A DNA stretch of 64,000 nucleotides, from positions 1 to 64,000 of the IMG/VR virus record IMGVR_UViG_3300006846_000001; one strand, 5' to 3'. The stretch is from a virus. Below are positions 3,019 to 62,719 of the stretch, one piece after another. Under the pieces are notes generated by a model. It saw nothing but the letters and a program-made list of their open reading frames with translations, was not told the origin of the DNA and did no database searches. The translations under genes were made by a program, and so were the position numbers. How positions within the stretch are numbered: position 1 is the stretch's first letter; each line of letters starts with the position of its first letter.

Positions 3019-4674
3019 CTAGCCCTTGAGGCTGGCCACTACGCGATCGCGGCGGGAGGCGAGGAGGCGTCGCCGAGCGTCGGCGGTCTCGCGTGCCCTC
3101 TGCGCTCCCAGCACCTGGCCTACGCCGTCAGCGATGCCAGCGGCGATGGCCTCGCGGACCTCCGCTGCCAGAGCGGCGGCCGGGTCCGCCTCGCCTCGTG
3201 CAGCGGCGGCGAGGAGTGCCATGTCCCGGGCGCCCGCGGCGACGAGGGCTGTGACGGTCCCGCCCGATGCGACCTGCGCGCGGGGAACAGGGAAGCCGGG
3301 GCCGTTGACGCAGTGGGCGATGATCAGCTCCAGGGTGCCGCCGATCCATCGCCAGTCCCCTGAGGGGCTGGCGGCCCGGAGCTTGCGCATGGTCAGCTCG
3401 TTGTCCCACACGTCCGGGAGGCCCGCGCCGTGGACCCATACGCCGTAGCGGTCCTCGCCTGCTGTGATCTGGGCGGCCTGGGTGCTCACGTCGTCGTAGT
3501 GGTTGAGGGCGGCCCGGTAGGAGAGCATGACGTCGGCGTGGCCGCCGCCCAGCGTCAGGTTGCCGCTGGGGCGGAGGGTCCCGTCATCGAGCTCGATGTG
3601 GCCGGGCTGGAACCACCGGTACCCGGATGCTGAGTGGGGCGTGAGGACGCACTGCCCGGAGGGGGAGCCGGTGTGGCACTGGCCCCACATGGCGATGTGC
3701 CCCAGGACCTCACCGGAGGGGAGGTACTGCATCGGGACGCCGCGCAGGGTGCGGCCCGTGTCGGGGTCCTCCACAGTGATGACGTCGTCGTTGCTGAAGC
3801 CCGGGTCGGTGAAGTAGGCGGCCGGGGGACGCACGGGGATGGTGGAGGTGGTGGCCGCGGCGGCGAGGGCTTGACCGTCGCAATCACCTCCGCAGCCACA
3901 CTCACCTCCGCACCCCGTGGCCGTGGTCTCCGGGGCGGGCTCGTGGGTGACGCGCACCGAGGCGTCACCGTCGCCTTCCTCGACGGCCGGCTCATCCTCG
4001 GGTGCGCTGTCGTCGGCGGGGGCGCCGGCGTCGGCGTAGAGGAGGGCCGCCCGCGCGAAGGCGGGGATCTGCACCTCGGTGAGGCCGCGGATGCGAGCGC
4101 GGGTGCAGCGCATGATCATGGAGTCCATGGAGTCGGCCCACATGACGACGCCGTCGTCGGGGTCCCCGTCGCCGGCCGCTGCGAGGAGTCCCTCCATGCC
4201 GGCGGCGGCGAGGACGCCGCGCAGGCCCGGGATGCTCAGGGAGTGGAGCTCGCCGGTGTCGGTGAAGATGGCCGAGGCGGTGAGGCCCTGCGCGGCGTAC
4301 ACCACGCTCATCTCCTCCTCGGACTCGGGTTCCTCGAGGTCGGTGGCCACGAACTCGACTGCCATGTCGTCGAGGTCCACGGAGACGCCCAGGGGCATGC
4401 CCTGGTCGTGCATCCGGGCGGCGACCATGCCGGCCGTCGTCTCGTCGTCCATCCACCCCTCGGCGCCGATGGTCCCGTCGCCGCGGCGTTCCATGGTGCG
4501 GATGGTCCCGATGAGGAGGGCCCCGTCGTGCCACCCGTCGTCTTCGATGTCGAGGCGGTGGGGCCAGCCTTGCCCGGGGTCGTCCCAGTAGAAGCACCCG
4601 GCGACGAAGATGCGCCCGTCGCCCGTTTGCACGTCCTCGTACGCGATGCCGGCCGGGCTCGTCCAGGTCCTCAT
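3019..4674 (-). CDS. Capsid maturation protease / minor head protein
   Basis: 551 aa. ATG 4674 overlaps the portal stop (ATGA). The N-terminal half (about residues 1-180) contains GYxVSVD-type phage protease sequence (MPLGVSVDLDD) and EMSVVYAAQG. The middle has an HIAMWGQCHTG / GQCVLTPHSA segment with conserved His and Cys, typical of actinophage capsid proteases. A Cys-rich patch (CGGECGCGGDCDG) forms a linker before it, and the C-terminal 80 residues are Ala/Arg-rich helix, suited to scaffold contact. It follows portal and precedes capsid, as expected. Active-site residues are not certain by eye. Confidence 0.7.
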   Translation of the reverse strand: MRTWTSPAGIAYEDVQTGDGRIFVAGCFYWDDPGQGWPHRLDIEDDGWHDGALLIGTIRTMERRGDGTIGAEGWMDDETTAGMVAARMHDQGMPLGVSVDLDDMAVEFVATDLEEPESEEEMSVVYAAQGLTASAIFTDTGELHSLSIPGLRGVLAAAGMEGLLAAAGDGDPDDGVVMWADSMDSMIMRCTRARIRGLTEVQIPAFARAALLYADAGAPADDSAPEDEPAVEEGDGDASVRVTHEPAPETTATGCGGECGCGGDCDGQALAAAATTSTIPVRPPAAYFTDPGFSNDDVITVEDPDTGRTLRGVPMQYLPSGEVLGHIAMWGQCHTGSPSGQCVLTPHSASGYRWFQPGHIELDDGTLRPSGNLTLGGGHADVMLSYRAALNHYDDVSTQAAQITAGEDRYGVWVHGAGLPDVWDNELTMRKLRAASPSGDWRWIGGTLELIIAHCVNGPGFPVPRAQVASGGTVTALVAAGARDMALLAAAARGEADPAAALAAEVREAIAAGIADGVGQVLGAQRARETADARRRLLASRRDRVVASLKG

Positions 4675-8075: not shown

Positions 8076-8089
8076 CTAACCCGGGTTAG
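8076..8089 (-). promoter_or_regulatory. CTAAC palindrome-promoter
   Basis: Perfect 14-mer. TTGACC, 18 bp, TAGTAT, then 6 nt to ATG 8066: predicted leaderless. The same 14 bases carry the TAG stop of the gene ending at 8076. About 30 bp here are identical to the copy at 17316. Confidence 0.85.
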
Positions 8090-17728: not shown

Positions 17729-17739
17729 GCCGATGACAC

Positions 17740-17753
17740 TAACCCGGGTTAGC
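17740..17753 (-). promoter_or_regulatory. CTAAC palindrome-promoter
   Basis: Perfect 14-mer. TTGACA, 18 bp, TAGTGT, 7 nt to ATG 17728. Best match to a sigma-70-type promoter in the set. Confidence 0.88.
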
Positions 17754-20318: not shown

Positions 20319-20332
20319 CTAACCCGGGTTAG
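20319..20332 (-). promoter_or_regulatory. CTAAC palindrome within a 30-bp perfect palindrome
   Basis: The 14-mer is embedded in a perfect 30-bp palindrome (20311-20340) because the flanks also match (CTCCGACC / GGTCGGAG). -10 TAGGGT, 7 nt to ATG 20308; GGAGG also sits in the short leader. No good -35. Carries the TAG stop of the preceding gene. Confidence 0.8.
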
Positions 20333-20713: not shown

Positions 20714-20727
20714 CTAACCGGGGTTAG
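20714..20727 (-). promoter_or_regulatory. CTAAC palindrome-promoter (variant centre)
   Basis: CTAACCCCGGTTAG on the minus strand. TTGAGC, 18 bp, TAGGGT, 6 nt to ATG 20704. Confidence 0.8.
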
Positions 20728-20743
20728 GTGGGATGCTCAAGGG

Positions 20744-20815
20744 TCTGGGCGGGGCGATTCGAACGCCCGGCCTCCCGGTCCCGAACCGGGTGCGCTACCG
20801 CTGCGCTACGCCCAG
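20744..20815 (-). tRNA. tRNA-Pro (anticodon CGG)
   Basis: Complete cloverleaf: acceptor CTGGGCG/CGCCCAG with the C1-G72 pair usual for tRNA-Pro, D-arm GCGC-GCGC, anticodon arm CCCGG-TTCGGGA-CCGGG, T-loop TTCGAAT, A73. No CCA encoded. It lies at the 3' end of the Met-Cys microprotein operon, just after a hairpin. Confidence 0.93.
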
Positions 20816-20893: not shown

Positions 20894-21310
20894 TTACGCC
20901 TCCGGGCTGGCCTCGTCGATGACGTTGGGATGGAAGATGACGGACCGGGCGGCGCCCTCCAGCTCGTCCAGGTCGAGGCCCATGCCCGCGGCGGTGGCGC
21001 GGCGCTGCTCGGTCTTGTCGCCGACGGTGGCCTTGATGCCGGCCTCGGTGGATTCAAGGCGGAAGGTGGGCGGGAGGGTGCGCTTCTCGATCTCGATGAG
21101 GAGGCGCTGCGCCTCGTCGGCCTTCGCGGCCTGGTCGGCGATGGCATCCACGAGGTGGGGCAGCCAGGACGCGAGCTGGAGGATGCCGAACCGGAAGTGG
21201 TTGCTGGTCCGCCACTCGTCGCGGCGGTCACCGATGAGGGCCCCCAGCAGGGCCTGGTGCTGGTCCTCGGCGTCCGTCACGTTGATCGGGGCCGGCGGGT
21301 TGCCCACCAT
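20894..21310 (-). CDS. Hypothetical helical protein
   Basis: 138 aa from ATG 21310; a GTG at 21346 is the alternative start. Helices HQALLGALIGDRRDEWRTS and HLVDAIADQAAKADEAQRLL, then a beta part. Last protein gene of the 24.8-20.9 kb operon. It does not share the Met-Cys start of its neighbours. Confidence 0.6.
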   Translation of the reverse strand: MVGNPPAPINVTDAEDQHQALLGALIGDRRDEWRTSNHFRFGILQLASWLPHLVDAIADQAAKADEAQRLLIEIEKRTLPPTFRLESTEAGIKATVGDKTEQRRATAAGMGLDLDELEGAARSVIFHPNVIDEASPEA

Positions 21311-21456
21311 AGGAGGTCCCCGGTGAGGCGCATCGCTGCGGTCCACGGGCCGTTCGGGCGGGGGTCTGGCCCTTCACTCTTCATGCGGCCGAGGGTCTCG
21401 TCGGCCTGGCGGCGGGCCTCGGGGGTGTTGGGGCGGGGCGGCTCACTCTTGCACAT
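21277..21456 (-). CDS. Met-Cys microprotein
   Basis: 59 aa. Starts MCKSEPPRPNTP and ends with an amphipathic Trp/Arg helix (GPWTAAMRLTGDLLWWATRR). It overlaps both neighbours. Same plan as the other Met-Cys proteins: Met-Cys, polar linker, C-terminal Arg/Trp/Leu helix. Confidence 0.55.
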   Translation of the reverse strand: MCKSEPPRPNTPEARRQADETLGRMKSEGPDPRPNGPWTAAMRLTGDLLWWATRRPRST

Positions 21457-21688
21457 CGGGGGACTCCTGGGGGTTGGGGTCGGGGGGCCACACGTAGGCG
21501 TGGCTGGAGCCGGCGGCGCACGTGCCGTACCCGCGGCGGCGGAGGGCACGGAGTTTCACGTGGGTGATGGGCAGCGCCACGACGGCGGCCGCCTCCCGGG
21601 TGGGGAGGATGGCCGGGCCGATGATGGGCACGCGCATCTCATCGAGGACCTCGAGGAGGTGATCCTCTGCGGTGAGCTCGGTCGTCAT
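21443..21688 (-). CDS. Small HTH-like protein
   Basis: 81 aa from ATG 21688 (ATGA overlap). LPTREAAAVVALPITHVKLR is a plausible helix-turn-helix (winged/MerR type), followed by a Gly/Tyr-rich end. Could regulate the operon; not established. Confidence 0.55.
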   Translation of the reverse strand: MTTELTAEDHLLEVLDEMRVPIIGPAILPTREAAAVVALPITHVKLRALRRRGYGTCAAGSSHAYVWPPDPNPQESPDVQE

Positions 21689-21879
21689 GGGGCCAGGTCC
21701 TCGCAGTCCTGGCCCGTCCCGTCGACGTCGGCGCACCGGTTGGGGGTCTGGCTCGTGTCGGTATGGCCGGGCCGGTCGTCATCATCGGGTGGCGTCTGGC
21801 AGGCGCCGGTGACGGTGACGCCGAAGGCCACGATGCCGGCGGCGAGGGCGCGCCAGCGGTGCCGGCGGTAGGCGGTCAT
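21685..21879 (-). CDS. Small lipoprotein
   Basis: 64 aa from ATG 21879 (ATGA overlap). Basic start, hydrophobic helix and lipobox VTGAC (Cys27), then a short acidic exterior with two Cys (CADVDGTGQDC). Predicted to be lipid-anchored outside the membrane. Function unknown. Confidence 0.65.
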   Translation of the reverse strand: MTAYRRHRWRALAAGIVAFGVTVTGACQTPPDDDDRPGHTDTSQTPNRCADVDGTGQDCEDLAP

Positions 21880-22097
21880 GAGCCGTCAGGTCGGGGCCAG
21901 CGGCCGCCGCGGGTACCGCGTCCCGGTGGGCGGCCTCGGCCTCGGTGTTCCTCGCGCTGGTGCTGCTCGCGTTCGCGGGCGGAGGGACGCCCCCAGGCCC
22001 CGTAGTGATCGTTGGACTCCTGGGGTGTGGCCCAGCCGCCGACGCTTCCGATGTCCCTGCCGCCCTCGCCTGAGCCGCTGTTCTGGTTGGTGCACAT
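21876..22097 (-). CDS. Met-Cys microprotein, Gly/Arg-rich
   Basis: 73 aa, ATG 22097 (TGATG). Starts MCTNQNSGSGEGG. The second half is Arg/Gly/Pro-rich (RGRGRPPGRGTRGGRW) without the hydrophobic helix seen in its siblings. Ends MTAY-overlapping the lipoprotein start. Confidence 0.5.
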   Translation of the reverse strand: MCTNQNSGSGEGGRDIGSVGGWATPQESNDHYGAWGRPSAREREQHQREEHRGRGRPPGRGTRGGRWPRPDGS

Positions 22098-22459
22098 CAC
22101 CGAGCCTCGGGGCCGCGCACAGTCCAGCCGACCACGAAGGCCACCGCGGAGGCGATGGCCAGGATGGCCCGATCGAAGAAGCGGGGCAGGCGGGAGCCGA
22201 AGTCTCGGCCGTAGGGCTCGGGGCTGCGGCCGGCGGGGGGCGTCTGGTCGGCGGCGTCGTCGGTGCCGTTGCCGGAGCAGGCCAGGGCCAGCGCACCGAA
22301 GCGGTTGGAGTTGAAGGGATCGTCCATGTCGGGGCGGTACCGGCAGACGGTGTGGTTCTGGCCGGGCTCATCGTTGGAGCACATGGCGTGTCCATCCTTG
22401 CGGTAGCGGGCGTTCAGCTCCCTGGCCTGGTCGGCGGGGAGGCGGTCGAGTTGGCACAT
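22097..22459 (-). CDS. Met-Cys protein, apparently fused units, membrane end
   Basis: 120 aa from ATG 22459 (TGATG). Starts MCQLDRLP and contains an internal in-frame MCSNDEPG. ALALACSGNGTDDAADQ is the polar-linker signature of the family. The C-terminus is a membrane helix (FFDRAILAIASAVAFVVGW). It reads like two or three family units joined in frame. Confidence 0.55.
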   Translation of the reverse strand: MCQLDRLPADQARELNARYRKDGHAMCSNDEPGQNHTVCRYRPDMDDPFNSNRFGALALACSGNGTDDAADQTPPAGRSPEPYGRDFGSRLPRFFDRAILAIASAVAFVVGWTVRGPEAR

Positions 22460-22596
22460 CAGGCGATGATGGGCCGGCGGCGTAGGAGCCGCACGATCAT
22501 GCCCAGCCACCCGCGCCGCTCGCTCACGAGGCCGAGGCCGGTCTTCTGGGGGGGCTTGAGCGGCGGCGGGGGCGGCTCCTGCTGGTGGCCGCACAT
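22459..22596 (-). CDS. Met-Cys microprotein (45 aa)
   Basis: Starts MCGHQQEPPPPPLKPP and ends WLGMIVRLLRRRPIIA, an amphipathic Arg/Leu helix. TGATG-coupled on both sides. The same length as its upstream sibling, suggesting duplication. Confidence 0.55.
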   Translation of the reverse strand: MCGHQQEPPPPPLKPPQKTGLGLVSERRGWLGMIVRLLRRRPIIA

Positions 22597-22733
22597 CACG
22601 CGGCCCTCAGGGCCAGGACGCGCCGGAAGGGGGCGATCCACTTCGATCGCCGGGCTCGGGGCGTAGCGGCCGCGCTGGTCGAGGGCGGCGGGGCCGGGCG
22701 CTTGATGTAGGGGTTGTCCTTGCCCCGGCACAT
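22596..22733 (-). CDS. Met-Cys microprotein (45 aa)
   Basis: Starts MCRGKDNPYIKRP, Pro/Ser/Ala linker, ends SKWIAPFRRVLALRAA. TGATG-coupled on both sides. See the finding on the family. Confidence 0.55.
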   Translation of the reverse strand: MCRGKDNPYIKRPAPPPSTSAAATPRARRSKWIAPFRRVLALRAA

Positions 22734-23257
22734 CACGCGGCCGTCCGGCGGTAGCCGAGGGCCCGCAGGAAGCGGACCCACTGGCAGCCCTGGGCGTGCC
22801 GGTCCAGGTCCAGGAACGTCCACCGGAACCACGCGACCGGTCGGCCCTGGCGGAGGAGGTTGCCCCCATCGCTGGTGGTCGACTGGCGAAGCCACGTCAT
22901 GAGCCGGAAGGTCCGCGGGGGCGGGGCCTGGGAGGGGTCCACGTCGCGCAGGGGAGCGGCGGGGTCACCGTTGCCGTCATCGCCGTTGGGGCAAGCCAGA
23001 GTCACCAGGGCCAGCACGGCGAGGGGGATGAAGCCGTGGCCCTTCCACCAGTCCTCGCGGCCGGTGGTGACATCGTGGGCTCGCCGGGCGCCTCGTCGTT
23101 CGATGGTCTGGGAGGGGCCGCGGTCTGCGGGGTCGCACATGGTCGGTCTCCGATCGTTGGAGGGTTGGGCGGTCCTGGCCCTGAGGTGGGGGTCGAGGCC
23201 TCCCTGCGGTTCGCCCGGTCCCCGGTAGGACCGGGGACCGGGGCGGGGCTTGCACAT
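22733..23257 (-). CDS. Met-Cys protein, fused units
   Basis: 174 aa from ATG 23257 (TGATG); an in-frame ATG at 23140 (MCDPAD) could be a second start. It contains a membrane helix (FIPLAVLALVTLACPNGDDG) running straight into the family's Asn/Gly/Asp linker, and ends WVRFLRALGYRRTAA. Appears to be a concatenation of family units. Confidence 0.55.
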   Translation of the reverse strand: MCKPRPGPRSYRGPGEPQGGLDPHLRARTAQPSNDRRPTMCDPADRGPSQTIERRGARRAHDVTTGREDWWKGHGFIPLAVLALVTLACPNGDDGNGDPAAPLRDVDPSQAPPPRTFRLMTWLRQSTTSDGGNLLRQGRPVAWFRWTFLDLDRHAQGCQWVRFLRALGYRRTAA

Positions 23258-23769
23258 CAGGCGCGCCGGTTGTAGGCGGGGTGGCGGTGCAGGGCCAGGT
23301 CGAGGATGCGCCGGAAGTTCCACGGGCCGTGCGTGCCCTTGGGCCTGATCCTGAACTTGCCCCAGCCGCCCGGGGGTGCCGTCTGGTCAGCCTCGTTGCG
23401 GCTCGGCCAGCCGGGGCGCGGCGGGGTACCCCCGGACACGTCGTCGCTCTCATCACCGCCTGTGCACATCAGGAGGAGGCCCCGCGCGGCGGGGATGGCC
23501 CAGTGGAAGGGCGGCGCCGGGCGTGGGCCGTTGCGCGGGGCGCGGGCGTCATCGATGGGCTCGTTCATGTAGGCCCGGGCTCGGGCCAGGGGGCCGGGCC
23601 GGCCGCCGCCATCATCCCCGTCGCCGTTGGTGCAGGCCATGAGGATGCTCAGCGCCACGAGGGGTGCGGTGACGGCCTGGAAGTTCTGCATCCCACCGCG
23701 TGGTGGGTGGTCGGTCATGTCCGGGGGGTTGGACCAGTAGCGGGGATCAGTGGGGTGGGGCTTGCACAT
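23257..23769 (-). CDS. Met-Cys protein, fused units
   Basis: 170 aa from ATG 23769. Three Met-Cys-like unit starts can be seen in frame (MCKPHPTD, MACTNGDG, MCTGGDES), each preceded by a hydrophobic stretch, and the end is WNFRRILDLALHRHP. Best explained as three concatenated units. Confidence 0.55.
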   Translation of the reverse strand: MCKPHPTDPRYWSNPPDMTDHPPRGGMQNFQAVTAPLVALSILMACTNGDGDDGGGRPGPLARARAYMNEPIDDARAPRNGPRPAPPFHWAIPAARGLLLMCTGGDESDDVSGGTPPRPGWPSRNEADQTAPPGGWGKFRIRPKGTHGPWNFRRILDLALHRHPAYNRRA

Positions 23770-23771
23770 CG

Positions 23772-24023
23772 TCAGGTCCTCCGGGGGATGAGGCGGGTGA
23801 GTAGTGCGATGGGCCATAGGGTGCGGCCCATCCACTGGTCAGGGGGCTTCTCCCAGCCGCGGCGGGTCGGGGGCGGGGGCTGCCAGCCGGGGCCCTCGGG
23901 GTTGGTGTTGCCGGCGCTGCGGGGGTAGCGGCTTCGCTCCTCACGGGTGCGGAGGTCGTACTGCTCTCCGTACCAGCCTCTTGCGGTGCGGCCCCGCTTG
24001 GGGCCGTCGTTTCCATCGCACAT
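23772..24023 (-). CDS. Met-Cys microprotein
   Basis: 83 aa, starts MCDGNDGPKRG. Arg/Pro-rich middle, C-terminal helix WMGRTLWPIALLTRLIPRR. Family plan intact. Confidence 0.55.
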   Translation of the reverse strand: MCDGNDGPKRGRTARGWYGEQYDLRTREERSRYPRSAGNTNPEGPGWQPPPPTRRGWEKPPDQWMGRTLWPIALLTRLIPRRT

Positions 24024-24025
24024 CG

Positions 24026-24205
24026 TCAGGTGTCCTCGTGCTCAGGTGCGGTGGGCGCGGGCTGGGGTGGGTGGCCGTTGCCTCGGTGGCGGATGGACCA
24101 GCCGCCCAGGAAGTGCCGGCGTCGCCGGTCGGGGGTGGCGTGGTCGATGACGCGGCGGGCATCGCCGGGGGCGCCGTGGCCGTTGCCGTTGCTGCTATCG
24201 CACAT
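24026..24205 (-). CDS. Met-Cys microprotein
   Basis: 59 aa, ATG 24205 (TGATG). Starts MCDSSNGNGHGAPGD. Basic RRRRHFLGGWSIRHRGNG in the centre and a Pro/Glu tail. A weaker C-terminal helix than its siblings. Confidence 0.55.
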   Translation of the reverse strand: MCDSSNGNGHGAPGDARRVIDHATPDRRRRHFLGGWSIRHRGNGHPPQPAPTAPEHEDT

Positions 24206-24453
24206 CAGCGGGTGGCCAGGTAGGTCAGGCTCGCTGCGGCGAGGCGGATGGCCAGCCGTCGGCGGATGCTGATGCGTGTCATGGGGGTGCCCCATCGGGG
24301 GTGGGATCCGTCGCGGCCGTTGCCGCCGGAGGGGCGGCGGCCGGGGCGCTGGCCTCGGCGGGTGATGCCCTCCCAGGTGGTGCGGCCGGTGTGATCGTTC
24401 ACGGCGCTCTGGGCGTTGCCGTCGCCGCCGTGGCCGTTCGACTCAGCGCACAT
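24205..24453 (-). CDS. Met-Cys microprotein
   Basis: 82 aa, ATG 24453. Starts MCAESNGHGGDGN. C-terminus MTRISIRRRLAIRLAAASLT is an amphipathic basic helix. Overlaps the 48-aa gene upstream by 11 nt. Confidence 0.55.
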   Translation of the reverse strand: MCAESNGHGGDGNAQSAVNDHTGRTTWEGITRRGQRPGRRPSGGNGRDGSHPRWGTPMTRISIRRRLAIRLAAASLTYLATR

Positions 24454-24589
24454 GGATCAGGCCGGCGAGTCGCCGGAGGAGGCGGGTGAGGGGCATGGGC
24501 GGCGGCCCCTCACGCCAGGGGTTGCGGCGGACCCAGATCTCGGTGACCTCGTTGCCGTCGGCGTCGGTGCGGGTCCGTTCCACGCACAT
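24443..24589 (-). CDS. Met-Cys microprotein (48 aa)
   Basis: A short frame read directly from the sequence: starts MCVERTRTDADGNE, then VTEIWVRRNPWREGPPP, ends MPLTRLLRRLAGLIHVR. ATG 24589 shares its A with the stop of the first operon gene (TGATG). Family plan intact. Confidence 0.55.
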   Translation of the reverse strand: MCVERTRTDADGNEVTEIWVRRNPWREGPPPMPLTRLLRRLAGLIHVR

Positions 24590-24798
24590 CAGGCGGTCCC
24601 CCTCGCGGCGAGTCGGCGGGCCACGTCGAGGGTCAGCAGGCGGGTGAGGCCGATGCGGTGGCCATTGCGCCCGGAGGGCGTGGTCCGGTCGGTGGGCCGG
24701 CCGAAGATGGCGGAGAGGCTCGATCCCTGGCCGGCGCCCCGGGCGGCCGTTCCGGCGTCAGAGTCGGAGCCGTGGCCGTTGCTGGAGTTGTCACACAT
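24589..24798 (-). CDS. Met-Cys microprotein, first gene of operon, leaderless
   Basis: 69 aa. Starts MCDNSSNGHGSDSD, 8 nt after the -10 of the 24810 palindrome. C-terminus IGLTRLLTLDVARRLAARG is an amphipathic basic helix. The leaderless start supports the Met-Cys N-terminus as real, not an artefact of start choice. Confidence 0.65.
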   Translation of the reverse strand: MCDNSSNGHGSDSDAGTAARGAGQGSSLSAIFGRPTDRTTPSGRNGHRIGLTRLLTLDVARRLAARGTA

Positions 24799-24809
24799 GG
24801 CCGGCCACA

Positions 24810-24823
24810 CTAACACCGGTTAG
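24810..24823 (-). promoter_or_regulatory. CTAAC palindrome-promoter of the microprotein operon
   Basis: CTAACCGGTGTTAG on the minus strand. TACACA, 18 bp, TAGTGT, 8 nt to ATG 24798. Confidence 0.8.
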
Positions 24824-24844: not shown

Positions 24845-25438
24845 CTACCCGGGGGTGGCGGAGGGCGAAGAGGATGAGTCGGCGGCGGGCTCGGGTACGG
24901 AGGGGGGTGGGCATGTTGGATCTCCCGGGCATGGAACCGTCGGCGGCGTCGTCGACGGGGGGATGGTCGTGCTGGTGGTGCTGGTCGAGGTGGTGGGCGG
25001 GGCGGTGGTACTCGTTGTGGTGGATGCGGTCGTCGGTGGGGCGGTGGTGGCCGGCGTGGGCGCCAGGCTCGTGGTGGAGGCCGGCGGGATCGTCGGGGCA
25101 GGAGGCGGGGGCTGAGGGGCTGTGGTGGCCGGCGCTGAGGTGGTGGGCCTCGCCGTGGTCGTGGTGGTGGTCGAGGATGCGGGCGGTGCGTCTTCGGCGA
25201 CCTCCGGGGCCGGGCGGGTGGTGCCCTGGGTGAGGTCGGCGAGGGGGCCGACGACGTATGCGACGCTCACGGCGGCGACCAGGAGGACGAGGCCCATGGC
25301 CGTGGTGAACATCCCGGGCGGAGGGCGCCGGGCTCGGGGCACGTCGGGGAGGGGACCGGGCGCTAGGTAGAAGCCCACGGGATGGGGGGCGGTGACCTCC
25401 TCCAGGGTGACGTCAGGGTCGTCGTAGGGGCCGTTCAC
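24845..25438 (-). CDS. Mucin-like single-span membrane protein
   Basis: 197 aa, GTG start overlapping the previous stop. Cytoplasmic N-terminus, one membrane helix (MGLVLLVAAVSVAYVV, about 48-63), then about 110 residues of almost pure Thr/Ser/Pro/Ala, a CPGDPTC pair, and a Ser-rich end. It resembles an O-glycosylated stalk displayed outside the cell. In a phage genome this suggests modification of the infected cell's surface, such as superinfection exclusion. Inference from composition. Confidence 0.7.
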   Translation of the reverse strand: MNGPYDDPDVTLEEVTAPHPVGFYLAPGPLPDVPRARRPPPGMFTTAMGLVLLVAAVSVAYVVGPLADLTQGTTRPAPEVAEDAPPASSTTTTTTARPTTSAPATTAPQPPPPAPTIPPASTTSLAPTPATTAPPTTASTTTSTTAPPTTSTSTTSTTIPPSTTPPTVPCPGDPTCPPPSVPEPAADSSSSPSATPG

Positions 25439-52764: not shown

Positions 52765-53871
52765 CTAGGCGTTGCGGAGGTACTCGCCGGTGGTGCGGGC
52801 GATGGCCTCGTTGATGGCCTCGACGTCGCCCTGGCTCCAGCCCTTGTCGGGGTAGGCGGGGCCGGTGCGGGCCATCTGCACGGCGATCTCTAGGGTTGCC
52901 TGGGTGGCGGCGCTCGCGGCCAGTTCCTTGGACATGGCGCGGGGGTGGGGGATGTGCACGGCCAGCCACGGCGTCGGGGTGTGGTTGATGAGGTCGTGGC
53001 CGATGACGGCGCAGCGATGCACGGGCACCTCGGCGCGGGCGACGGCATGCGTCACGGTCTCGCCGGCCAGGAGGACGACCCGGCCCCCGATGTTGGGCAG
53101 GATGCGGTGGACGGCGAACTCCTGCCACGTGACGGTGCTGACGCGGGACCAGTCGGCGATGGGCTCGGGGGAGAGGTTGATGGTGTCGAGGGCGTCAAGG
53201 AGCCGCCCGGGCCCCAGGCGCAGGTACTGCTCCAGGCGCTCGCCTCCCACGGTGCCTATGAAGGGCGCAGCGTCGGCCAGCTCCGGGCGGGGGGCGAGGC
53301 CCACGAGGAGGGGCTTGCGGAGGCCGGCGTCGGCGGGGGCGTGGCGGCAGCCGGTCGCGGCCAGCTCTGCTGCGGTGCCGGTGGGGGAGCCGGGGCACAC
53401 GAGGCAGCGCATGCGCCCGAGGTCCGCGGCGACGGCGCTGTACTCGGTGAGGGCGGCGCGGTCCGCTGCGCTGATGTCGCGGTGGGGTGCGCCCACGGCG
53501 AGGATCACATGCGGCGAGTCGGGGCGGGCGGACACGGCGTGGGGCACGGCGCCCTCGACCATGTAGACCTGCCCGGCCTCGGTGGGGTAGATGGTGCCCT
53601 CCACGGTGATGGTGCCGTAGCCGCCCACGACGATCAGGAGGTGGTCGCCGGGGTGGGTGTGGGGGGCGAAGCCCTTGCCGGGAGGCACTGAGATCAGGTC
53701 GACGCCCAGGAAGCCGTTGCCCACGAGGGTGCGGCCCGTCGCCTCGGTGCCGTACATGGGTTGGGGGCCGGGACCGAGGCGGACTTGGACGGTGGACCGG
53801 TCAGCGTCCTGGCCGGTGTGCTCGGCCCACTGGGCGAGGATCAGGGACCCGTCGTCGTGCTGGTACGTCAT
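52765..53871 (-). CDS. Cupin fused to uracil-DNA-glycosylase-like domain
   Basis: 368 aa, ATG 53871 (TGATG). Residues 53-125: cupin fold with HTHPGDH (71-77) and His111. Then CLVCP (156-160) and GLAPRPELADAAPFIGTVGG (191-210), the motif I region of UDG-superfamily proteins (VGxAPGxxE..xxxPFxGxxG), followed by a helical domain with RVVLLAGETVTHAV, as in family 4/5 UDGs. The catalytic water-activating residue is not evident, so a nucleotide-binding or base-modifying role is as likely as repair. Last gene of the six-gene operon. Confidence 0.7.
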   Translation of the reverse strand: MTYQHDDGSLILAQWAEHTGQDADRSTVQVRLGPGPQPMYGTEATGRTLVGNGFLGVDLISVPPGKGFAPHTHPGDHLLIVVGGYGTITVEGTIYPTEAGQVYMVEGAVPHAVSARPDSPHVILAVGAPHRDISAADRAALTEYSAVAADLGRMRCLVCPGSPTGTAAELAATGCRHAPADAGLRKPLLVGLAPRPELADAAPFIGTVGGERLEQYLRLGPGRLLDALDTINLSPEPIADWSRVSTVTWQEFAVHRILPNIGGRVVLLAGETVTHAVARAEVPVHRCAVIGHDLINHTPTPWLAVHIPHPRAMSKELAASAATQATLEIAVQMARTGPAYPDKGWSQGDVEAINEAIARTTGEYLRNA

Positions 53872-54491
53872 CACATGCTCCAGATGAGATGGGCCTCGTC
53901 GGCTTCTAGGAGGCGGCCGGCGGGCAGCGGCGCCGAGGACACGGCCGCGTAGTCGCGGGTCACCTCGGCGTACAGGGGGTGGGCCGCTACCCTAACGCCC
54001 GTTACCCTCCCGGCGTACAGCCCGTCCGCGTCTGCCCAGATGAGGGCCTGTGGCGCACGGCATGCCAGTTGCAGGAGGGCGAAGCGGGCGCCCGGTGGGC
54101 GGTCCTGGCGGGCCAGGATGCGGAGGATGGCCTCCGAGTCGATGGTCACCTTGGCGGGGTCCTGGCCGAGGTCGGTGATGCACTCGGCGGTGAGGGTCCC
54201 GTTGTGGGCGAAGGCGACGCCGGCGTCGACCAGGGGCTGGCCCTCGTCAGGGTCGGGGGCGTCGCCGGGCCGGCGGGTGGAGGTGGCGAGGCGGGAGTGT
54301 CCAATTGCTATTGGACCGGGGGCGGGGGCGTCCTGTGCGGTGAGGCGCCCGGGGCGGCGGGTGACGGTCCAGCCTCCGGGGGCGGGGGTGGCCCAGCCGT
54401 GGGAGTGCGGGCCTCGGGCGGCGGCCCCGATGATGGCCGTTGCTCGGACCTCGGGGGGCACCTCTCCGGCGAGGGCTACGAGGCCGCACAT
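53871..54491 (-). CDS. Class II (Ntn-type) glutamine amidotransferase
   Basis: 206 aa, starting MCGLVALAG so that Cys2 becomes the N-terminal nucleophile. GHSRLAT (64-70) has the Arg that binds glutamine, HNG (96-98) the oxyanion residues, Asp118 in DSE the ammonium contact. A stand-alone amidase domain, so ammonia or an amide must be passed to a partner encoded nearby. Overlaps the PAPS-type gene by 16 nt. An AT-rich 7-bp hairpin (54299-54316) lies within the GHSRLAT codons. Confidence 0.85.
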   Translation of the reverse strand: MCGLVALAGEVPPEVRATAIIGAAARGPHSHGWATPAPGGWTVTRRPGRLTAQDAPAPGPIAIGHSRLATSTRRPGDAPDPDEGQPLVDAGVAFAHNGTLTAECITDLGQDPAKVTIDSEAILRILARQDRPPGARFALLQLACRAPQALIWADADGLYAGRVTGVRVAAHPLYAEVTRDYAAVSSAPLPAGRLLEADEAHLIWSM

Positions 54492-55252: not shown

Positions 55253-55797
55253 GTGGCGCGGGTCTTGGGGGCGGGGCGCCACGCCTGCCCGAAGCCCTCG
55301 GGGCTGGAGCCACGCTCCAGCATGTTGCCGCGCTGGAGGAGGCGCTTCACCTCCTCGGCGTCCATGCCCAGCCGGCGGCGGACCTCGTCAGTGTCCATGC
55401 CCGACTCGACGAGGGTGGCCACGATGTCGGCCATCTTCACGACGTGGTGGGTGCCACGGGCTCGGTTGTGGCGCACGGTGGAGAGGCGCCGCTCGGCCTC
55501 GTCCTTGTCGATGGGGACGATGGGCACGTACCCCTCGGTGAGCTTCCACACGTCGGGGTCATCCGAGGTCAGCCACCGGTGGTAGCCGTCGACGACCTCG
55601 AAGTGATCGGCGATGGTGTCGTGGGGGCCGGCCACGATGGGCTGCGTCCACCCGTCCTCGAGGATGCTGGTTCGGAGGAGCTTCAACTCGGGGGGTGCCA
55701 CGTGGTTGGGATTCCAGGCGTTGGCGTGGAGGCGCTCACGCTCGACCCACATGACGTTGCTGATGGGCTGGAGGGGGCGGCCGATGGGGGCGGTCAC
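55249..55797 (-). CDS. IbrB-like ParB-domain protein
   Basis: 182 aa, GTG 55797 (GTGA overlap). NPN (29-31), GWTQPIV (49-55), VVDGYHR (68-74), STVRHNRARGTHHVVKMADI (110-129), LGMDAEEVKRLLQRGNM. This matches the ParB/sulfiredoxin-fold IbrB proteins known to pair with IbrA. Directly downstream of the IbrA-like gene, as in ibrAB loci. Confidence 0.85.
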   Translation of the reverse strand: MTAPIGRPLQPISNVMWVERERLHANAWNPNHVAPPELKLLRTSILEDGWTQPIVAGPHDTIADHFEVVDGYHRWLTSDDPDVWKLTEGYVPIVPIDKDEAERRLSTVRHNRARGTHHVVKMADIVATLVESGMDTDEVRRRLGMDAEEVKRLLQRGNMLERGSSPEGFGQAWRPAPKTRAT

Positions 55798-57029
55798 TCG
55801 ATGTCTCCGTTCGCGCGGGACGCCTCGACGTCCTCCCGGTAGGCGGCCCAGCCGGCGGGGGTGTTGAGGTGGGGCTGGGCTTGCATGATCTCGTTGCGGT
55901 CTTTGAGGTCACCGCGCAGAGCGATGGTCGCCACCCACTCCCAGGAGACGCCGGTGTAGGGGTGGCGGGCCTTGCCGGGAATGGGGTCGGTCGTCTTGGA
56001 GTAGTGGTTGCGGATGATGCGACGGCACTTGTGGGCGACGAAGCGGCGCACGGCCGGCTCGGTGTGGTCCTCCACGAGGGTCCGCACGAAGGTCTGCCAC
56101 GTCATGCCGTCGGGCTTGGAGGGCGCGTCGCCGTAGGCGAACAACTCCGTCCGCGAGTAGCGGGCCCCGCAGGCTGCGCCGGGGACCCGGTACACCATCC
56201 GTGACCACAGGTCCGGGAAGCACGCGGCCCACTGGTCGAGGTCCCGGGCGGGCTGCTCACCGAAGGGCGGCGCTATGCGCTGCTGGGAGGGGGAGAAGCC
56301 GTGCATGGATAGGAGGTCGTAGCTGCGGTTGTAGTCCCATCCGAGGGTGGCCGGCGCCGTCCACACGTCGGCCGCCGTCCAGTCGTAGACGGGATACACC
56401 TTGTAGTAGGCGGGGTTGTCGCTGGGCATCACGAAGTTGTCGGGGCGCTTGTTCGACACGGCCTTGCGGCGGATGATGGACTCGTCGGCCCGGATGCCCA
56501 TGAGGGCGCAGCTCGTCCCGTACCGGTCGTGCGGTGACACCAGGTGCGTCATCGTGTCGGGGATGGACATGCGAGCGTCGGGCGGCTCGACGGGGAAGCC
56601 GTCGAGCTCGGTGATGGCCTCCGGGGGCAGGGGCCACACCCACCGGTCGCGGGCCTCCGGTGCCCATGGCCACCAGTGCGGCTCATCCATGGAGCAGGCG
56701 TTGCGGTGCTTCACCGGGAGGCAGAACCACTCCAGCCCGACCTCAGGCAGCTCGGCCACGCGGCGGGTGTACTCGATCGTCAGGTCGCTGATGCACTCCT
56801 CGTCGAAGAACACGACGCGCAGGGGCAGGCGGTCCAACTCGGCGGCCACGGCGAGGGCCACGTTCAGGACGGCGGTGGAGTCCTTGCCCCCGGAGAAGCT
56901 GACGAAGACGTGGTCGAAGCGGGTGTAGGCGTAGCGGGTCCGTTCGAGGGCCGCCTCCCATACGGATTGCCCGGTGCGCTCGCGGCCCCACCAGCCCGTC
57001 GCCTCGGGGACGGCGGGAGTGGCCGTCAT
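55794..57029 (-). CDS. IbrA-like PAPS-reductase-family protein
   Basis: 411 aa. PP-loop SFSGGKDST (44-52). The second half carries the IbrA/DUF3440-type signature: YPVYDWTAADVWTA, GWDYNRSYDLLSMHG, QQRIAPPFGEQP, MTWQTFVRTLV, RFVAHKCRRIIRNHY. IbrA/IbrB are known regulators of eib genes of E. coli and have homologues on many prophages, but their biochemical reaction is unknown to me. ATGA overlap with the upstream ParB gene. Confidence 0.88.
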   Translation of the reverse strand: MTATPAVPEATGWWGRERTGQSVWEAALERTRYAYTRFDHVFVSFSGGKDSTAVLNVALAVAAELDRLPLRVVFFDEECISDLTIEYTRRVAELPEVGLEWFCLPVKHRNACSMDEPHWWPWAPEARDRWVWPLPPEAITELDGFPVEPPDARMSIPDTMTHLVSPHDRYGTSCALMGIRADESIIRRKAVSNKRPDNFVMPSDNPAYYKVYPVYDWTAADVWTAPATLGWDYNRSYDLLSMHGFSPSQQRIAPPFGEQPARDLDQWAACFPDLWSRMVYRVPGAACGARYSRTELFAYGDAPSKPDGMTWQTFVRTLVEDHTEPAVRRFVAHKCRRIIRNHYSKTTDPIPGKARHPYTGVSWEWVATIALRGDLKDRNEIMQAQPHLNTPAGWAAYREDVEASRANGDIE

Positions 57030-59933: not shown

Positions 59934-59947
59934 CTAACCCGGGTTAG
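59934..59947 (-). promoter_or_regulatory. CTAAC palindrome-promoter
   Basis: Perfect 14-mer. TTGACC, 18 bp, TAGTGT, 7 nt to ATG 59923. Flanks nearly identical to the 17740 copy. Confidence 0.87.
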
Positions 59948-59956
59948 CGGCGTCGG

Positions 59957-62719
59957 TCAAGCCGGGACGTCGGATTCCCTGGTCGCGGCCTCGGGTTGTG
60001 GCGGTGAGCTGGGCTTTGGTTTGGATGATCGGCGCCGCTCGGCGAGGGCGGTGATGGCGTCGGAGAGGTCGCCGGCCGTCTTGTACTTGCCGACGTCCTT
60101 GAGCTTCCAGCGCTTCGCCGCGTCGAGTTGGCGGGGACTGGGCTTGCGCTTGCGCCACCCAGCGTCGGAGCTGGTGAGGCGGGTGTCGCCGTGTAGGCGG
60201 GCGTAGTCCTCGCCGACGCCCTGGCACGTCTCGAGGTCCACGTCGCGGATGAGGGTGCGGGCGCCTTGGGTGGGGTGCTGGTCCTGGACGGCCCACGACT
60301 CGTCGCTGTTGGGGTCGAGTTGGACCATGACGAGGCGGGATGCGCCCTGCCTGCCCAGGGGCAGCACGTAGCGGAGGCGGTCGTCGTTGCGGCGGGGGGC
60401 CGTGACCCAGGCCAGGCCGTCGCCGCGGAGGCGCTTGAAGAGGTCGGCGGCCTCGGCGCGGAGGCGGCCGGCGGCGATCTCAGCCTCTTCGTGCTGGGCG
60501 ACCAGCACGGACACGGGCGCCTCGCCGGTCGTGGCGCGGCGGGCCAGCTTGGCCGGGAGGCCGAAGAGGCTGGGCACGGTGATGAGGCTGTTCTCGCGGG
60601 AGGCGCCCACCACGTCGAGGACGAGGCAGTCGACCTTGTCAGGGTGCTTGCGGGTGCCGCGGCCGATCATCTGGGTGTAGAGGCCCGACGATTTGGTGGG
60701 CCGCCCGATGACGATGCAGTCAGTGCGGGGCGCGTCGAAGCCCTCCGTCAGGACCATGCAATTGGTGACGACGTCCACCTCGTGGCGCCGGTACCGGTCC
60801 AGGAGGTTGCGCCGCTCGGTGGGCGGCGTCTTGTCCGAGACGCAGCCGGCCCGGAGGCCGACTTGGCGGCAGGCGTCGGCCGTCTGCTCGGCCGTCTCCA
60901 CAGTGGGAAGGAAGGCCAGGGTCAGGCGGTGGGGGGCGTACTCGCGGATGGCCTGGGCGATCGTCCAGGGGGCGCCGGCGTCCTGGAGGGCCCGGCCGGT
61001 GTCGCCGGCCTGGTAGTCCCCGCGGCTCACCTTGACCTTGCCCAGGTCGAGGTCATCGAGGATGACGCGCTGGCCTCGCACGTCGGAGAGGTAGCCGGCG
61101 CGGATGCCCCACAGGATGTCGTAGGTGAAGGCGACCTCATCGAAGACGCCGTCGAGGCCCTGCCCGTCACCGCGTTGGGGGGTGGCGGTGGTGCCGTAGA
61201 GGATGGGGCCGCCGGGCTGGCCGACGCCGCACCAGTCAAAGATGCGCCGGTAGCTCGCGGCGGCGGCGTGGTGCGCCTCATCCACGATGACGAGGCCGAA
61301 GGGCCGGCCAGCCGTCGGATCGGGACCGACGCCGGGCTGCCACTCTGGGCACAGGCGGGCGAGGCGGCGGCGGTTGGCGAGGGTCTGCACGGACCCGACG
61401 ATCACGTCGGCGTGCACGCCGTTCTCTGGGCCTTTGACGATGCCGAGGCTGGGCACATCGGGCCACGAGTTGAGGATGCTCTTGACGGCCTGGCGGATCA
61501 GCTCGTCGCGGTGGGCGAGGATCAGGGTGCGCAGCCCCAGCCGCTCGGCCAGCGCGCAGAAGATGACCGTGTTGTGGGTGACGACGTACCCGCGGGTGAC
61601 GAAGAGGCCGTCGGGGTTGGCGACCTTGATGCAGACCATCTCGGCGTCGCCGGCCGGCTCGATGCCGGTGATGCGACGCTGGGGGTGGTACTTGGTCCGG
61701 GGCTTCCAGGCGTCGGCCTTGCGCTTCCAGCGGAAGGGGCAGATATCCATGGCGATGGAGAGTCGCCAGGCGGTGCCCTGGTGCTGTTCACCGTTGTAGG
61801 TCCAGGTGGTGCGTTTGTACCTGAGGCGGGCTGTGCCGCCGAGGCTACGGACGAGGTGGGCGGTGTCCTGTGCCAGTTGATGGTTGGCGAGCGTGAGCTC
61901 GATGTGACCGTCGCTAGGTCGCACGTGGCCGTCAGCGTCCATGATGCCGCGGAGGAGGTTGAGCCGGTCCGCTGCGGGGGCGAACTTGTAGAGGTCGGGA
62001 ACAGCCTTGCTCGTCGCTCGGCTTCCTTCTAGTCCTAGGACGCGGATGGCGGACAGGATGGGGTTGTCGCCACGGCCGGTGGGTCCTCCGATTATCCAGG
62101 TCCCGGCTCCGCCGCCGCAGTCAGCGAGGCGCTTCCATCGGCAGGGCGCTGGTAAGTCGATGGTCTCGACTAGCTCATCCTCGGTGTGCACCAGGACGCG
62201 GCCGGGGACGGAGAGGCCGCCGTCGCCTAGGAGCACGCCTAGGAGGTACGGGTCGAGGGGCAACGTCACGGCGCTGTGCTGGACTGGTGCTACGAGCGGG
62301 GTCTCCCAGCGGTGGCCGGCTCCTTCTCGGAGGCCAACGTCGAGGAGCTGCTGAGTCGTGAGTGTCCGCCATGGGCGGCCACGGAGGCGGTCGTGTTTGG
62401 TGCGGACGGCCCAGAGGTGGTCGGCGTCACAGACGACTTGCTGCCCCTCGGTGAAGTGCACGCGGTAGGCAGGACGGATGCCCTGGGGGAAGACACCTTC
62501 AACCGTGGTTGGAAGGCCGTCGCCGCCGATGACCTGGTCGCCGGGGGTGAGTCTGCCGATCGGGGTCCAGCCGGTAGGGGTGAGGACAGGCTCGTCAGCG
62601 GCGAGGGCTTTCCCGAGGCCGGTGGCGGCTACGCCCAGTAGACGGCGGACGCCCTCGCCGAGTCGGGCATCGACTCGGGCGAGGGCGTCCTGCTGGTAGG
62701 GCCTGGGGGTCAGGCGCAT
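59957..62719 (-). CDS. SF2 DEAD/DEAH-type helicase with class 3 LAGLIDADG intein in Walker A
   Basis: 920 aa precursor; exteins make a helicase of about 574 aa. Walker A reads ATGLGK (32-37) joined after splicing to T384. DEAH is VIVDEAHHA, motif III TATPQR, motif IV FLPTVETAEQTADACR, motif VI QMIGRGTRK. The intein (residues 38-383, 62608-61571) starts ALAADEPV, has Trp in HLW (W103, block B), Cys363 (MVCIKV, block F) and ends VVTHN|T, the Trp-Cys-Thr set of class 3 inteins. LAGLIDADG motifs: LLGVLLGDG (159-167) and LLRGIMDADG (255-264). Recombination/replication helicase; it lies in the 63003 unit. Confidence 0.92.
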   Translation of the reverse strand: MRLTPRPYQQDALARVDARLGEGVRRLLGVAATGLGKALAADEPVLTPTGWTPIGRLTPGDQVIGGDGLPTTVEGVFPQGIRPAYRVHFTEGQQVVCDADHLWAVRTKHDRLRGRPWRTLTTQQLLDVGLREGAGHRWETPLVAPVQHSAVTLPLDPYLLGVLLGDGGLSVPGRVLVHTEDELVETIDLPAPCRWKRLADCGGGAGTWIIGGPTGRGDNPILSAIRVLGLEGSRATSKAVPDLYKFAPAADRLNLLRGIMDADGHVRPSDGHIELTLANHQLAQDTAHLVRSLGGTARLRYKRTTWTYNGEQHQGTAWRLSIAMDICPFRWKRKADAWKPRTKYHPQRRITGIEPAGDAEMVCIKVANPDGLFVTRGYVVTHNTVIFCALAERLGLRTLILAHRDELIRQAVKSILNSWPDVPSLGIVKGPENGVHADVIVGSVQTLANRRRLARLCPEWQPGVGPDPTAGRPFGLVIVDEAHHAAAASYRRIFDWCGVGQPGGPILYGTTATPQRGDGQGLDGVFDEVAFTYDILWGIRAGYLSDVRGQRVILDDLDLGKVKVSRGDYQAGDTGRALQDAGAPWTIAQAIREYAPHRLTLAFLPTVETAEQTADACRQVGLRAGCVSDKTPPTERRNLLDRYRRHEVDVVTNCMVLTEGFDAPRTDCIVIGRPTKSSGLYTQMIGRGTRKHPDKVDCLVLDVVGASRENSLITVPSLFGLPAKLARRATTGEAPVSVLVAQHEEAEIAAGRLRAEAADLFKRLRGDGLAWVTAPRRNDDRLRYVLPLGRQGASRLVMVQLDPNSDESWAVQDQHPTQGARTLIRDVDLETCQGVGEDYARLHGDTRLTSSDAGWRKRKPSPRQLDAAKRWKLKDVGKYKTAGDLSDAITALAERRRSSKPKPSSPPQPEAATRESDVPA
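61571..62608 (-). mobile_element. Intein with LAGLIDADG homing endonuclease
   Basis: 346 residues, in frame, inserted between Lys and Thr of the helicase P-loop. Ala1 as first residue, block B with W103, penultimate His and Asn in THN, Thr at +1. Two dodecapeptide motifs about 95 residues apart indicate a homing endonuclease, so the element may still be mobile. Confidence 0.88.

Follow-up and report, generated by a model that had tools for sequence, protein, structure and literature searches.

The first 64,000 nucleotides (the window) of the 101,313-base IMG/VR virus record IMGVR_UViG_3300006846_000001 carry on the minus strand, between positions 24798 and 20894, an array of short coupled genes, twelve of which begin with Met-Cys. 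The pattern holds up and greatly exceeds chance expectation. Conservation of nothing but the second residue across a dozen coupled genes is an unusual and sharp signature of selection, which points to the exposed N-terminus as their common functional element. The array is read here, with a confidence somewhat short of even, as a diversifying block of membrane-associated accessory microproteins for interaction with the host, in which the N-terminal cysteine would be functional and of which some members would now be lipoproteins. Genes of the array are named below by the position of their first base.

Met-Cys starts of the array

All twelve starts named in the original prediction read ATG-TGC, save that of 24798, which reads ATG-TGT, and three further Met-Cys sites lie in frame within longer reading frames (23469, 23140 and 22384). 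On the minus strand from 24.8 to 21.2 kb every ATGTGY (Y being C or T; 15/15) is either the start of a small frame or an internal in-frame Met-Cys, and of the 30 copies of ATGTGC on the whole 101 kb minus strand the array holds 14. Cysteine is residue 2 in 10 of the 13 automatically called array genes as opposed to 1 of 155 outside (P ~4e-20); three genes in the same range, 21879, 21688 and 21310, have no Met-Cys start. The junction sequence TGATGTGC is present in the window in 11 copies, against 1.74 expected and a maximum of five across 100 shuffles, and eight of these copies are in the array, on its strand. The joining of the genes by TGATG, as originally proposed, is found for seven of the twelve starts, while 24023 and 23769 have TGACGATG, 24453 and 21456 have a longer overlap and 24798 is leaderless.

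The only other called gene of the genome with Met-Cys is 53871-54491 (minus strand), which encodes a glutamine-amidotransferase-like protein (MCGLVALAG...) with a weak, below-cutoff match to GATase_6.

Coding capacity of the frames

A GC content of 72% gives this genome long open frames on either strand, and the members could in principle be chance open frames and not genes, a view to which the weak codon scores of 22097, of 22733 and of the stretch 23257-23141 lend something. Codon bias, which could have shown the frames to be non-coding, gives a positive log-likelihood ratio (LLR) for the Met-Cys frame and negative values for the other five in nearly all members, and the enrichment of cysteine at residue 2 (Cys2) itself speaks against non-genes, which makes chance frames hardly credible. 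The exception is 23257-23141, with an LLR of -4, about zero, as opposed to +64 for 23140-22733. Since this stretch scores like non-coding DNA and a GGAG ribosome site precedes position 23140, the true start of this gene, the seventh of the array, is probably 23140.

Operon and putative operator set

The genome contains a 14-base palindrome, CTAACNNNNGTTAG, at 26 sites, which in almost every case lie immediately ahead of a minus-strand start. The copies overlap a TAGTGT-like -10 element and the start codon follows only ~7-12 bases on, so that the transcripts behind them are probably leaderless; 16 of the ~24 starts behind the palindrome read ATGAGCAC (Met-Ser-Thr). The set looks like a phage-wide group of operators or promoters, comparable in layout to stoperators. 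Sites of CTAACCCGGGTTAG and its variants in the window include 8076-8089, 17739-17752, 20319-20332, 24810-24823 and 59934-59947.

One of the 26 copies, CTAACCGGTGTTAG at 24810..24823 (minus strand), overlaps the -10 (TAGTGT) of the putative leaderless promoter of the array. As this copy precedes 24798 and the next one (20714-20727) follows only after a tRNA-Pro(CGG) gene at 20742..20815 (minus strand), which ends the transcription unit, the array is by this layout one operon, from 24.8 to ~20.7 kb, in agreement with the original prediction.

Conservation of the second codon

In a base-by-base alignment of the 15 starts only ATGTGY is fixed, with variation both in the third codon and upstream. 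C or T comes after ATGTG in all 15 array cases, as opposed to 17 of the 39 sites on the rest of the strand (p=1e-4), and ATGTGG, which would encode Trp, is absent from the array. Elsewhere in the phage Cys2 is absent from all 79 overlapping starts and from all 15 TGATG starts, which shows that coupling does not need it. Because the array avoids the Trp codon and keeps Cys, and because conservation ends at two codons, Cys2 itself, and not a coupling signal, seems to be under selection.

A six-base RNA element is still conceivable, since the cysteine codons of the genome leave little room for variation (in the training genes 102 of 112 are TGC and 10 are TGT). AUGUGC would in that case be an mRNA site for a translational regulator, a small RNA or re-initiation, with cysteine as its by-product, and the array would illustrate a new way to co-ordinate overlapping genes. 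The share of TGC, 14 of 15, is indistinguishable from the codon bias, and conservation of starts at the nucleotide level does exist in this phage, as seen in the eight bases shared by genes behind apparent leaderless promoters. Such an element is nevertheless judged unlikely: the first gene has ATGTGT, the conservation stops sharply after six bases, TGC is missing from all the coupled and TGATG starts elsewhere, and the Rfam match is to the tRNA only.

Recombination history could also have left Met-Cys behind, if TGATGTGC were a short shared boundary at which small genes are exchanged. Phage mosaicism has been proposed to involve short boundary sequences (PMC3029335), and the eight copies on the array strand, the mostly dissimilar genes between them and three in-frame fusions precisely at Met-Cys would suit this scheme. 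About half of the junctions, though, read CGATGTGC or CCATGTGC and have dissimilar flanks, and six shared bases, in one case with a synonymous change, are short for homologous recombination, which makes shuffling at the junction distinctly improbable.

AUGUG sites can start translation in both frames in E. coli, from the AUG and from the overlapping GUG (PMC9841429), and AUGUG is present at all 15 starts. The GUG-frame product stops after 1-6 codons in seven of the 15, the other frames score as non-coding and no AUGUGG occurs in the array, so that a function as ambiguous starts has very little probability. Dual-frame reading was tested and rejected, the GUG frame being short or non-coding in every member.

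Architecture of the proteins

A segment rich in Asn, Gly, Asp, Ser and His follows Met-Cys (mean 0.47 vs 0.23 elsewhere, p=2e-4) and is strong in ~7 of the 15 cases, so that the linker first ascribed to most members belongs to about half of them. The C-terminal tails, described originally as amphipathic helices of Arg, Leu and Trp, are indeed cationic (mean charge +4.6 vs -0.2 in a control of 93 other small phage proteins, p=2e-5) and richer in Trp than this control (p=0.002), and many members share a Trp ahead of the basic-hydrophobic tail. Their helical moment, on the other hand, is no more than ordinary next to the same control (0.49 vs 0.45, p=0.12). In an AlphaFold2 model of 24453 the body is disordered and residues 61-81 form a C-terminal helix, with a predicted local distance difference test score (pLDDT) of 73-80 over most of the helix and 50-55 elsewhere.

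The members were thought to be otherwise dissimilar and to have diversified by duplication. Duplication and divergence are well illustrated by 24798 and 24453, clear paralogues with z ~7 even when Met-Cys is excluded, and 24205 weakly resembles both; these paralogues and the shared Trp-containing tail show that the dissimilarity was overstated. Within 23769, Met-Cys comes in frame directly behind a hydrophobic-basic stretch (ARGLLL-MC-TGGDESDD), and this suggests a joining of adjacent units there.

Lipobox-type members

Three members contain a hydrophobic stretch that ends in Ala-Cys and is followed by Asn, Gly or Asp (positions 23634, 22993 and 22279), and three of the four proteins of the genome that fit a simple lipobox pattern belong to the array. 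The gene 21879-21685 encodes, by its sequence, an ordinary small lipoprotein with a signal peptide, and a basic n-region and hydrophobic core are present in part in 23769 and 23140. No signal peptide was found in the plain Met-Cys members, where Cys is residue 2 and the upstream frames are not hydrophobic. In four array genes the lipobox-like sequence reads MAC, LAC, LAC and GAC around position -1, which in the Met-Cys members is occupied by Met. The lipobox-type Cys-Asn-Gly-Asp junctions, the lipoprotein, the promoter and operator and the in-frame fusions had all been missed in the original prediction.

The whole array might alternatively consist of lipoproteins, with Cys-[Asn/Gly/Asp/Ser] as the mature N-terminus and Met-Cys as a by-product. 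The lipobox members would be exported and lipidated, with surface exclusion as a candidate role, and the Met-Cys frames would be modules detached from, or about to join, a signal helix encoded by the last part of the gene before. Besides the clustering of lipobox-type proteins, this explanation draws on the resemblance of the post-hydrophobic Cys-Thr-Asn-Gly-Asp, Cys-Pro-Asn-Gly-Asp and Cys-Ser-Gly-Asn-Gly to Met-Cys-Asp-Ser-Ser-Asn-Gly, and on the hydrophobic-basic stretch in frame with Met-Cys in 23769. It is nonetheless improbable, as most Met-Cys members lack both a signal peptide and a hydrophobic in-frame sequence upstream, Arg interrupts the preceding tails, Met is unusual at lipobox position -1, and Met-Cys is retained in members that have no Asn/Gly/Asp segment. 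Use of the preceding gene's tail as a signal peptide through frameshifting is unlikely in general, the tails being broken by Arg and the -1 frame reading Leu/Val-Met-Cys.

Search for relatives

The members tested have no match in Pfam, and no significant match was found to a family in PHROGs or to a defence or anti-defence family in PADLOC, which bears out the statement that no family of this plan has been described. In tblastn searches of 50,697 phage records, two members and the 21688 gene gave matches with E of at least 0.4 or none. Relatives of the phage itself were not found with the terminase or the last gene of the operon (20894-21310), and only distant ones with the helicase. A five-sequence PHROG 1362 alignment led to 16 contigs, and the Met-Cys cluster is in none of the related contigs, the helicase relatives included.

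A DNA pattern for Met-Cys with Asn-Gly-His-Gly matched 27 stretches of IMG/VR, none of which proved on inspection to be a second array; nor was one seen among the matches listed for pairs of TGATGTGC in IMG/VR, or with TGATGTGC triples in IMG/VR and 84,980 prokaryote species. Inspected matches are out-of-frame low-complexity repeats or other repeats. As these scans cover TGATGTGC junctions within narrow spacings, and arrays with other junctions would escape them, the absence of a second array holds within those limits.

An unrelated viral contig (L204, positions 3653-4037) carries a tandem pair of small Trp/Cys-rich proteins (MCWFNRHWWR...) of a different Cys-rich family.

Proposed role of the array

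On the preferred reading, the array would be one operon of fast-evolving accessory microproteins that arose as tandem duplicates, diverged and were occasionally fused in frame, and its translation would proceed by stop-start coupling from the leaderless promoter. Methionine aminopeptidase removes Met before Cys, and the exposed N-terminal cysteine of the original prediction is a reasonable expectation: loss of the initiator Met would leave a free Cys, followed by a disordered polar segment. Most members would end in a cationic, Trp-containing, helix-prone tail, probably lying on the inner face of the host membrane, and some appear to have become lipoproteins, or to have come from them, with Cys-Asn/Gly/Asp placed behind a hydrophobic stretch. 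The proteins would most likely act at the host envelope, in superinfection exclusion or takeover, and the N-terminal Cys might serve as a second point of attachment or reaction through a disulfide, thiol conjugation or acylation. Turnover or modification through this residue is also possible, since an N-terminal Cys degron is reported from E. coli, where acetylation of N-terminal Cys can also occur (PMC12258705). The roles first suggested, as membrane-active peptides, anti-host inhibitors or decoys, would be candidates only; the members share a net positive tail with cationic membrane-active peptides, but not an amphipathic helix above background.

Several observations weigh against this reading. 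The lipobox proteins also keep a Met-Cys at their far N-terminus, where it would be discarded with the signal peptide; because of this position, the cysteine of Met-Cys and that of the lipobox may differ in function. The hydrophobic tail is missing in 24205 and 22097, the helical moment of the tails is unremarkable, the AlphaFold2 models of two members are of low confidence, and no relatives were found for a cross-species test of selection.

A bolder and rather doubtful proposal is that the array represents a new class of phage microproteins whose sole defining feature is an N-terminal Cys handle. One operon would supply a dozen or more different cationic members that undergo a common processing or modification at the exposed Cys, by conjugation, acylation or thiol exchange with a partner from host or phage, and whose bodies are free to diversify. 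If the selection signature at the second residue is confirmed, it would point to an undescribed use of N-terminal cysteine in the interaction of bacteria and phages.

Members of the array

All members are on the minus strand, and their codon scores are LLR values. Protein 1 (24589..24798, 69 aa, MCDNSSNGHGSDSD..., codon 2 TGT) has +27.6 bits, with the other frames negative, and protein 2 (24443..24589, 48 aa, tail LTRLLRRLAGLIHVR) has +28 bits. Protein 3 (24205..24453, 82 aa), the paralogue of protein 1, is supported by its codon score and by the helix and similarity described above. It is followed by protein 4 (24026..24205, 59 aa, MCDSSNGNGHG..., +29 bits), without a hydrophobic C-terminal tail, and protein 5 (23772..24023, 83 aa, +42 bits).

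Protein 6 (23257..23769, 170 aa), supported by its frame, codon score and lipobox pattern, contains the lipobox-like ...LVALSILMA-C46-TNGDGDDGGG and the internal Met-Cys 23469 (MCTGGDESDD). Protein 7 (22733..23257) has non-coding-looking first 38 codons when read from 23257; from the likely start 23140 it is a 135-aa protein (MCDPADRG...) with the lipobox-like FIPLAVLALVTLA-C50-PNGDDGNGD. Proteins 8 (22596..22733, tail KWIAPFRRVLALRAA) and 9 (22459..22596, tail GWLGMIVRLLRRRPIIA) are both 45 aa long and score +10.7 bits, weak yet the best frame, and +23 bits. Protein 10 (22097..22459, 120 aa, +94 bits) combines the internal Met-Cys 22384, the hydrophobic FGALALA-C-SGNGTDD and a C-terminal hydrophobic segment, and protein 11 (21876..22097, 73 aa, MCTNQNSGSGEGG...) has a weak +7.5 bits with the other frames negative.

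The small lipoprotein (21685..21879, 64 aa, LLR +38), which does not begin with Met-Cys, has the signal peptide MTAYRRHRWRALAAGIVAFGVTVTGA-C-QTPPDDDD. An 81-aa protein (21443..21688, LLR +64), also not Met-Cys and without a family match, precedes protein 12 (21277..21456, 59 aa, tail MRLTGDLLWWATRRPRST, +16 bits). The last protein-coding gene of the operon (20894..21310) encodes a 138-aa protein, MVGNPPAPIN..., not Met-Cys, for which the searches found no relative.

The phage and neighbouring genes

The gene complement includes a terminase, a portal, a helicase and a cytosine methylase, and all 168 genes from the codon-based caller are on the minus strand. The nearest portals are those of phages of Microbacterium, Arthrobacter and Mycobacterium (identity ~30%), and identity of the PHROG-1362 protein is 45% with Arthrobacter phage KellEzio and 47% with Pseudanabaena phage Pam4; from these matches the uncultured phage is probably actinobacterial, without close described relatives.

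Directly upstream of the array, 24845-25438 (minus) encodes a 197-aa protein with a cytosolic N-terminus, one membrane helix and a long Thr/Pro/Ser-rich stalk, possibly a surface stalk. The helicase 59957-62719 (minus) has an N-terminal part matching terminase and primase families and a LAGLIDADG-containing insertion (residues ~253-305) that is probably an intein, and 55794-57029 (minus) encodes a PAPS-reductase-like protein (PHROG 2302, DUF3440), an auxiliary gene of the sulfur-metabolism type.

Comparison with known systems

Clusters of small orphan genes in actinophages are likewise short, coupled, co-directional and without family matches; the array differs in its invariant second residue, a feature not known from them. 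The Cys-codon attenuators of mycobacteria are also short coupled reading frames with Cys right at their beginning, but the array has a single Cys codon per gene, at every gene, and no poly-Cys run. The ambiguous AUGUG initiation sites of E. coli (PMC9841429) share the start sequence of every member, from which the array is set apart by a sixth base that is always C or T and a non-coding GUG frame.

Proteins with an N-terminal Cys nucleophile, the class II glutamine amidotransferases, also expose Cys through a Met-Cys start, and the phage appears to have one at 53871-54491. The array proteins, of 45-170 aa and low complexity, have no such domain, and no Pfam match to it after the N-terminal Cys was found for those tested. 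Phage and actinobacterial lipoproteins, substrates of Lgt and LspA that include superinfection-exclusion lipoproteins, show the same Cys followed by an Asn/Gly/Asp/Ser-rich linker, and the operon itself has one clear case in 21879, beside two or three members of the lipobox type; the Met-Cys members differ from them in having no signal peptide and in carrying their Cys immediately after the initiator Met.

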